64,000 bases of DNA from NCBI RefSeq assembly GCF_025056915.1, contig NZ_JANWVH010000001.1:1-64000 (forward strand). The letters are read 5' to 3'. Of the stretch, positions 7,527 through 9,769 are shown one piece after another. The first letter of the stretch is position 1; each line of letters begins with the position of its first letter. The position numbers and the translations under genes are program-made. The notes beneath the pieces were generated by a model that was given only the letters and a program-made list of their open reading frames with translations, was not told the DNA's origin and searched no databases. The stretch is from Meiothermus sp. (GTDB lineage Bacteria; Deinococcota; Deinococci; Deinococcales; Thermaceae).

Positions 7527-7919
7527 CTACATTTGGGCCCGGCACTCGGGGCAGACGCCGTGGTACTCGACCTGCACGTCTTCAATCTCGTAGGCGGGAT
7601 AGCGGGTCTTAACCTCGCTCAGCAGGTCGGGTAGGGGCTGCACGATGTCGAAGAAGCGGTTGCACTTGCGGCAGACCATGTGCAGGTGCCCATCCAGGTT
7701 GGCTTCGTAGCGCAGGGCCTCCCCTGGGCGCGAGAGCGGCACCAGGTAGCCCTCTTCGGTCAGGGCCTCGAGGGTGCGGTAGACCGTGCCCAGGCTGATG
7801 CTGGGCACTTTTTTGCGAACCTCTGCATACACCCAAGCGGCATCGGGGTGGTGGCCCTGGGCATGCCGAACCACCTCGAGGACGGCCTTGCGCTGCTTGG
7901 TCAAGCGTTTCATTCCCAT
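7527..7919 (-). CDS. Fur-family metal-responsive repressor (Fur/PerR/Zur type)
   Basis: About 130 residues. A winged-helix N-terminus (RLTKQRKAVLEVV ... SISLGTVYRTLEALTEEGYL) is followed by a dimerisation/metal domain with HLHMVCRKC and HGVCPEC. The two CxxC pairs form the structural zinc site typical of Fur and PerR. Which metal or peroxide it senses cannot be read reliably. The start is uncertain: ATG at 7919 or 7913, or a TTG at 7931, none with a clear ribosome site. An inverted repeat ACAGTCGG-N19-CCGACTGT lies 20-55 bases upstream. The gene follows hemC on the same strand but appears to have its own promoter. Confidence 0.9.
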   Translation of the reverse strand: MGMKRLTKQRKAVLEVVRHAQGHHPDAAWVYAEVRKKVPSISLGTVYRTLEALTEEGYLVPLSRPGEALRYEANLDGHLHMVCRKCNRFFDIVQPLPDLLSEVKTRYPAYEIEDVQVEYHGVCPECRAQM

Positions 7920-7939
7920 GGTGGTACCCAAATCTTCGG

Positions 7940-8044: not shown

Positions 8045-8938
8045 CTAGCCAGCCTGCACGATGCCCAGCAACTCCCGCCCGCCTTCGGCCAGCAGGTCCT
8101 GGGCCAGGTCGTGCCCCAGCTCGGGGGCCTCCTCGGCGTCGCCCTCAATCTCGGCCCGGATAAGCTCGCGGCCATCGGGCGAGGCGACCACCCCCTGCAA
8201 GACCAGGGTGTCGTCGCCCTCCAGCGTGGCCAGCGCCGCCGCGGCGCATTCGTCCCCCGCACCCAGGGCGCGCAGGAAGGCCCGCTCGGCAGCCACCCGC
8301 ACAAACGAGGCGCGGTGGTTGAGGCTGTAGGCCAGCTCCTCGGCCCAGTCGTCCCCCTGGCGCACCTCGAGGCCCAGGGCCCCCTGGCCGGGTGCGGGCA
8401 GCACAATCTCGGGGTCTATGAGCTGGTCAATGCGGTTGCGCAGGTCGAGCCGCAGCAAACTGGCCGCGCCCATGATCATGGCGTCGTACTCACCGGTGCC
8501 CAGGGCGGTCAGGCGGTCGTCCACATCGCCCTCGAGGTTGCGGATGCAGAGGTCGGAGCGGTAGGCCAGCAGCTGGGCTTTGCGTCGCAGGCTGTTGACC
8601 CCCACCACCGCCCCTTTGGGCAGCTCCTCCAGGCGCTTGGCGCTGCGCCCCACCAGGGCCTCACGGGGTTCCACCCGCTTGGGTACGGCAATCAGGCGAA
8701 TTCCGGGCGTTTCCTGGGTCGGCAAATGCTTTAGCGAGTACACCGCGATATCCACTTCCCGTTTGCTCAGGGCCTGGCGCAGGGCTTCGGCAGCCCCGAC
8801 CTCGGAGGTGTTTTTGGCCTGCACGGTGCGAATTTTGAACTCGGTTTCGGGCCAGTTTTCCTTCAGGCGCTCCACCACCCAGCGGGTCTGGGCCTGTGCC
8901 AGCAGGCTGGCCCTGGCCCCAATTACAATGACGCGCAT
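8045..8938 (-). CDS. hemC: HemC homologue (porphobilinogen deaminase-like) with altered active site
   Basis: 297 residues, colinear with hydroxymethylbilane synthase, which joins four porphobilinogens in tetrapyrrole synthesis. Conserved parts include [36 protein letters not shown] and [12 protein letters not shown]. Several residues known to be essential in E. coli HemC are changed. The KDVP motif with catalytic Asp84 is KHLP here, the RGNV Arg149 is EGDV, and the dipyrromethane-cofactor loop GGCQVP reads AGDECAAA, keeping a Cys but shifting its context. It may be a divergent enzyme or a non-catalytic paralogue. The ATG at 8938 has TAATAT 10 bases upstream, suggesting a leaderless start. Confidence 0.8.
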
Positions 8939-8979
8939 AACGCCCAATATATTAGCGATAAAACGCAGAATGTGAAGAG

Positions 8980-9340: not shown

Positions 9341-9769
9341 CTAGCGGGCCTTGCCGAAGGCAAAGACCAGTTCGTCGCCCTTTCGCACCACAAACAGAAG
9401 GGCGGCCTTGCCGGCACTGTCCAGAAGGTCGTAGCGGGTGCGAATTTCACCTGCGACCTGTGTTTCTTGTTGGTTTTCCACAAAGTAGCCTGCCGCGGCA
9501 AAGCCGGTCAGAATCTGCTGCACAAAACCGGCTTGCAGACGGGCTGCCAGACCCCGGGCGGCGTAGACCTCCAGGTTGAACCGGCTGGCGTCGGGAATCC
9601 GGGCCACAATGGCCTCGCTGCCCCGTCCGGCCCGGAAGGAGCCCGAGGGGAAGCGCACGCTGGCATCGAGGGACGACGCAATGGCGGCAACGGTGGTGAC
9701 TTCCACCAGGGTCTGGCCCAGGGCAGGAGCTCCCAACAGAAGCAGAAAGGAGAGGAAGAAGGCTCTCAT
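9341..9769 (-). CDS. Small exported protein of unknown function
   Basis: 142 residues with a clear signal peptide (MRAFFLSFLLLLGAPALGQ). The mature part, about 123 residues, has no Cys and no recognised domain; it contains the pattern AAGYFVENQQ followed by a short beta-rich C-terminus. CGAGGT before the ATG is a weak ribosome site. It probably resides in the periplasm or on the cell surface. The 94 bases separating it from the next minus-strand gene show nothing. Confidence 0.65.
   Translation of the reverse strand: MRAFFLSFLLLLGAPALGQTLVEVTTVAAIASSLDASVRFPSGSFRAGRGSEAIVARIPDASRFNLEVYAARGLAARLQAGFVQQILTGFAAAGYFVENQQETQVAGEIRTRYDLLDSAGKAALLFVVRKGDELVFAFGKAR

Follow-up and report, generated by a model that had tools for sequence, protein, structure and literature searches.

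The hydroxymethylbilane synthase (HemC, porphobilinogen deaminase) homolog encoded at positions 8,045 to 8,938 of the window, that is, the whole 64,000-nucleotide stretch of Meiothermus DNA analyzed here, is very likely a pseudoenzyme derived from the HemC that the Thermaceae inherited vertically, with its catalytic inactivity predicted from the residues that it has lost and with a non-catalytic function that is most likely not strictly tied to heme synthesis. Three features of the window are relevant to this proposal:

8045..8938, minus strand: pseudo-hemC, 297 residues, probable non-catalytic ortholog of Thermus HemC (open reading frame, family matches, AF2 model, dN/dS)
7527..7931, minus strand: Fur-family regulator gene adjoining pseudo-hemC (Pfam FUR, 1.2e-23; gene order)
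8949..8976, minus strand: leaderless-type promoter, TTCACA-N16-TAATAT (promoter scan; upstream comparison of 21 orthologs and of Thermus/f4)

The frame starts with the ATG at 8938-8936 and stops at 8047-8045, with an alternative TTG start at 8947. Its product is homologous to HemC over its whole length: it matches Pfam Porphobil_deam (1.2e-52) and also Porphobil_deamC (PF01379 and PF03900), and it scores 248 bits against the NCBIfam model TIGR00212 (hemC), for which the cut-off is 164. The AF2 model of the protein has a pLDDT of 93.7 and a TM score of 0.95 to the E. coli enzyme, and the top PDB matches retrieved by Foldseek are hydroxymethylbilane synthase (HMBS) structures, with around 39% structure-aligned identity to that from E. 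coli (1ah5). Both Pfam domains and the structural comparisons place the three-domain fold of the enzyme across the full length of the protein, which also keeps the SLRR and GQGALGLE motifs, as the sequence-only reading had indicated.

What distinguishes this protein from HemC is the active site. When it is aligned with E. coli HemC from strain MG1655 (whose numbering is used unless otherwise stated), the following differences appear:

8726..8728, minus strand: His71, at the position of the catalytic Asp84 (His or Tyr in 17 of 17 Meiothermus orthologs)
8531..8533, minus strand: Glu136, at the position of the substrate-handling Arg149
8252..8254, minus strand: Asp229, at the position of the cofactor-bearing Cys242 (Asp in 17 of 17 Meiothermus)
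8246..8248, minus strand: Cys231, two residues past the Cys242 position (16 of 17 Meiothermus; absent from Calidithermus and g4)
8786..8818, minus strand: shortened segment corresponding to the cofactor/lid loop (D46 to F62 in E. coli), which has been replaced or deleted

Three of these changes had been proposed by the sequence-only reading, namely KDVP to KHLP at Asp84, RGNV to EGDV at Arg149 and a modified cofactor loop, and all three hold in the alignment, the last one as the replacement of Cys242 by Asp with a Cys two residues on. The loss of D46, the deletion of the lid loop and the changes N151 to D, T127 to V and S128 to N go beyond what had been listed. Residue D46 corresponds to Thr in the window protein and to Ala or Thr across the Meiothermus orthologs, and E. 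coli residues 55-62, including K59 and F62, fall in a gap in all 17 Meiothermus orthologs as well as in the four from Calidithermus and g4. In these four the position of Cys242 is occupied by Leu or Ile, while the g4 ortholog keeps D84; the Cys231 equivalent is missing in one Meiothermus genome, G001. In the known enzymes, Cys242 bears the dipyrromethane cofactor, Asp84 is catalytic and Arg149 is important for forming the ES2 intermediate, and in the Bacillus megaterium protein the D82A and D82N versions are inactive and D82E is active (PMC8561815). Lacking Asp84, Cys242, Asp46, Arg149 and the lid loop, the window protein should neither hold the dipyrromethane cofactor nor polymerize porphobilinogen.

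A different set of residues is retained. R11, S13, K83, R131, R132, R155, R176 and Q198 are found in at least 16 of the 17 Meiothermus proteins, and of the arginines R11, R131, R132, R149, R155 and R176 five are kept in this genus, R149 being Glu. Calidithermus and g4 have only part of this arginine set, and most of it is gone from the second degenerate clade described below. It could be argued that the cleft has been remodeled to catalyze another reaction, since the substitutions (H/Y84, E149, D151, D242 and the Cys two residues later) are conserved across Meiothermus. Such a new enzyme is improbable: among Meiothermus, Calidithermus and g4 the substituted positions vary, with D84 kept in g4 and the shifted Cys absent in G001, unlike what would be seen in a conserved catalytic center.

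The origin of the gene was traced in a sample of 61 genomes, made of the window genome and 60 others from the same order. The genomes called here Thermus, M. ruber, Allomeiothermus silvanus, Marinithermus, Oceanithermus and Truepera are presumed to be such from gene scores and group codes, and these tentative names should be taken as leads only. The degenerate gene occurs in 17 of the 18 Meiothermus genomes (the window genome included), in two Calidithermus and in one sister genus (g4). In phmmer searches the window protein scores around 370 against Thermus HemC vs. around 110 against the other HemC of Meiothermus, and it is 58-62% identical to the HemC proteins of Thermus and f4 (Marinithermaceae-type). 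In the tree, the degenerate Thermaceae clade (support 100/100) is sister to the intact HemC of Thermus, and the joint clade has a support of 96/87. The window gene is, then, the vertically inherited ortholog of the HemC that Thermus and other genera have as a single, intact copy. The genomic context agrees, as the adjacency of hemC and Fur is found in Thermus and f4, both with intact HemC, and in most Meiothermus, indicating that pseudo-hemC occupies the ancestral hemC site; the Fur neighbor is missing at two Meiothermus loci (L032 and L036). Upstream of pseudo-hemC, the window encodes at 9344-9769 a small protein, predicted to be secreted and without Pfam matches, that is conserved there in many Meiothermus and in some f4. 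In spite of the shared neighborhood and the sister position in the tree, Thermus HemC differs from the window protein in keeping D46, D84, R149 and C242 and in being the only HemC in its genome. The changes are therefore not universal among Thermaceae HemC proteins, so that the refuting case named by the sequence-only reading, which had also called for this comparison, does not hold.

The nature of the working enzyme in Meiothermus emerges from the same genomes. Most of them encode a complete HemC within the operon hemA-hemC-hemD-hemB-HK-RR-hemE-hemQ-hemH, and 15 carry both the degenerate copy and this second one. The operon HemC belongs to the same family as the window protein and is found in the same genomes, but it is only around 36% identical to it, lies far away in the tree, has all the catalytic residues and shows a dN/dS of 0.20. 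The histidine kinase/response regulator pair between hemB and hemE (L063:9881-11739 and equivalents) is a feature of this operon in Meiothermus and related families. Across the 61 genomes, the vertical HemC is intact in 26, all of them without a second one. A degenerate vertical HemC is present in 31, of which 26 have the second HemC; of the other five, two (G015 and the window genome, G000) have their assembly broken at the operon and three (G048, G055 and G059) have no hemB or hemE detected. Four genomes fall outside both classes: G006 and G040 (the latter classed by its hemB neighbor) have only the second type, G044 has none and G051 is unclassified. An intact vertical HemC without a second copy and a degenerate vertical HemC are mutually exclusive in this sample.

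A second hemC and hemB were both to be looked for according to the sequence-only reading. The complete copy turned up in the hem operon of the relatives; in the window assembly only the window copy was found, with hemA, hemB and hemE likewise absent. The first 3.5 kb of the G015 contig carrying the hem operon match the first 3.8 kb of contig C99 of the window genome; the match ends around 250 bases from the end of C99, beside sequence that matches many other places in this genome, and the G015 contig ends just where hemC would begin. Judging from the contig match, the hem operon of this genome very probably lies in an assembly gap beside C99. The single copy is thus very probably due to a contig gap and is no evidence that the window protein makes heme. 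A true single HemC in this organism was considered and rejected as the likely state, because hemA, hemB and hemE are missing too and C99 ends at the start of the G015 operon. At locus L093, the window genome contains what by eye look like siroheme-synthesis genes beside a nitrite reductase-like gene, and enzymes of this kind would need uroporphyrinogen III.

These observations bear on the choice that the sequence-only reading had left between a chemically different heme enzyme and a pseudo-enzyme. In the first case, hydroxymethylbilane would still be made, the shifted cysteine carrying the cofactor and His or Tyr standing in for Asp84, a notion that finds some backing in the window protein being the only HemC in its assembly and in the presence, in 16 of 17 Meiothermus, of a Cys two residues further on. 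It is nonetheless highly improbable: here the whole operon is missing at a contig end, the D82A and D82N mutants of B. megaterium are inactive (PMC8561815), D46 and the lid loop are gone and, since close relatives own a second, complete HemC, no new chemistry is needed. Attachment of the cofactor to the shifted cysteine was itself judged unlikely, that residue being missing in G001, Calidithermus and g4. Of the two options, it is the pseudo-enzyme that is supported.

The degenerate copy is not a gene in decay. Among Meiothermus, the median Nei-Gojobori dN/dS of the degenerate HemC is 0.108 (119 pairs), vs. 0.202 (37 pairs) for the operon HemC and 0.153 (75 pairs) for the Fur neighbor. The degenerate copy is the more conserved one in most genome pairs having both, and this is true of all three structural domains. 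It is under strong purifying selection, with a dN/dS half that of the working HemC. Moreover, a -10 box (TAATAT or close to it) stands around 10 nt ahead of the ATG in the 21 upstream regions compared, in the midst of intergenic sequence that has diverged, and Thermus has TAGTAT at a similar place; this conserved leaderless-type arrangement argues that pseudo-hemC is expressed. A decaying pseudogene or a sequencing error, to which the missing catalytic residues and the loss of the gene in G006 might point, is extremely improbable given an open frame in all 17 Meiothermus and four Calidithermus/g4 genomes, a dN/dS of 0.11, the conserved promoter element and a high-confidence fold. The pseudogene was rejected on the dN/dS and the promoter element, and the error proposed as a possible source of the anomaly fails because all 17 Meiothermus orthologs have Asp at position 242 and His or Tyr at 84. 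In G006 pseudo-hemC has been cleanly lost, with the Fur-family, alpha/beta hydrolase and UbiD genes remaining on different contigs (L164 and L165), and the gene is consequently not essential.

A similar fate befell HemC elsewhere in the Deinococcota. In families f3 and f5 the vertical hemC is also degenerate, with no Cys242, the lid deleted and most arginines lost, and it forms a separate clade (100/98) beside the intact f2 enzymes. The best tree needs two losses, but a topology with all degenerate proteins in one clade is not rejected by the AU test (p = 0.15), so that two independent origins are favored rather than proven. The genes of this second clade are under weaker constraint, estimated with less certainty (pairwise dN/dS from 0.18 to 0.59). 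In G048, G055 and G059 (L052, L059 and L060), hemB and hemE were not detected and an intact degenerate hemC frame is kept, G055 being a single contig; the model of the G055 protein is confidently folded (pLDDT 94.0). In f3 the gene closely follows metK (recognized by eye from its sequence) instead of Fur. No partner gene conserved across all lineages emerged from gene neighborhoods, Fur (Thermaceae) and metK (f3) being lineage-specific. Residues W32, R172, D174, D200, Y207, R217, E273 and D284 (in numbering 3 above that from the ATG) are conserved in intact and degenerate members of the family and not in other HemC proteins; they may be candidates for a shared second function, and could equally be structural.

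All these observations can be integrated in a model in which the second, complete operon HemC would make hydroxymethylbilane, and the old copy, at its ancestral site next to Fur, would have lost the cofactor cysteine and the cofactor/lid loop, followed later by the catalytic aspartate, while keeping the three-domain fold and most of the anion-binding arginines. Presumably expressed from its own leaderless-type promoter, it would have a non-catalytic job, as the strong purifying selection argues, most likely the binding of a ligand or a protein partner; constraint across the whole fold is in keeping with a protein for binding or scaffolding, and we infer such a binding or regulatory role. The loss of catalytic residues is conserved in the 17 Meiothermus and four Calidithermus/g4 orthologs, under purifying selection (0.108) and with an intact predicted fold (93.7). 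With pseudoenzymes in general the window protein shares the loss of the active site, the intact fold, the purifying selection and, in the relatives that carry both copies, a paralog in the same genome that is predicted to be active. No description of a HemC-family pseudoenzyme was found in the literature searched; PMC11528492 deals with a dead TrpC-TrpF, not HemC.

The arginine cleft kept in Meiothermus would allow the binding of an acidic ligand, perhaps a pyrrole, but the other degenerate lineages have not conserved it. In a more specific form of the model, the protein would sense tetrapyrrole precursors, binding porphobilinogen, dipyrromethane or hydroxymethylbilane through the retained arginines and regulating the working HemC or its Fur-family neighbor. 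The eight residues kept in Meiothermus and the adjoining Fur gene speak for such a sensor; it is nevertheless rather unlikely, in view of the Glu at R149, the partial or nearly complete loss of the arginines elsewhere, the three second-clade members without hemB or hemE and the absence of Fur at L032 and L036, Fur being simply the ancestral neighbor.

Returning to the broader pseudoenzyme proposal, the active ancestor may already have had the second role, which would explain the parallel retention in other lineages, some of them without hemB and hemE. Against it stand the loss of the gene in G006, the AU result, the lack of a partner gene shared by all lineages and the fact that the genomes without hemB and hemE belong to the other, more divergent clade. 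It can tentatively be suggested, at somewhat less than even chances, that HemC in the Deinococcota had a non-enzymatic second function before catalysis was lost, was stripped of its active site in at least two independent events once another HemC took over or heme synthesis was lost, and was kept for that function even without heme synthesis.

Most of the degenerate proteins tested (206-249 bits) pass the cut-off of 164 of TIGR00212, an equivalog model for active HMBS, and automatic annotation will therefore call them hydroxymethylbilane synthase. With a score above this cut-off, heme synthesis can be credited to a protein very probably incapable of that step, and this would mislead the reconstruction of pathways from incomplete genomes, the present assembly being one. 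HemC has been treated as a single-function enzyme; that the dead copy changes at a slower pace than the live one in the same genomes suggests that the HemC fold has a role yet to be discovered. With one intact copy in Thermus vs. a dead and a live copy in Meiothermus, this role could be tested by deletion without stopping heme synthesis.
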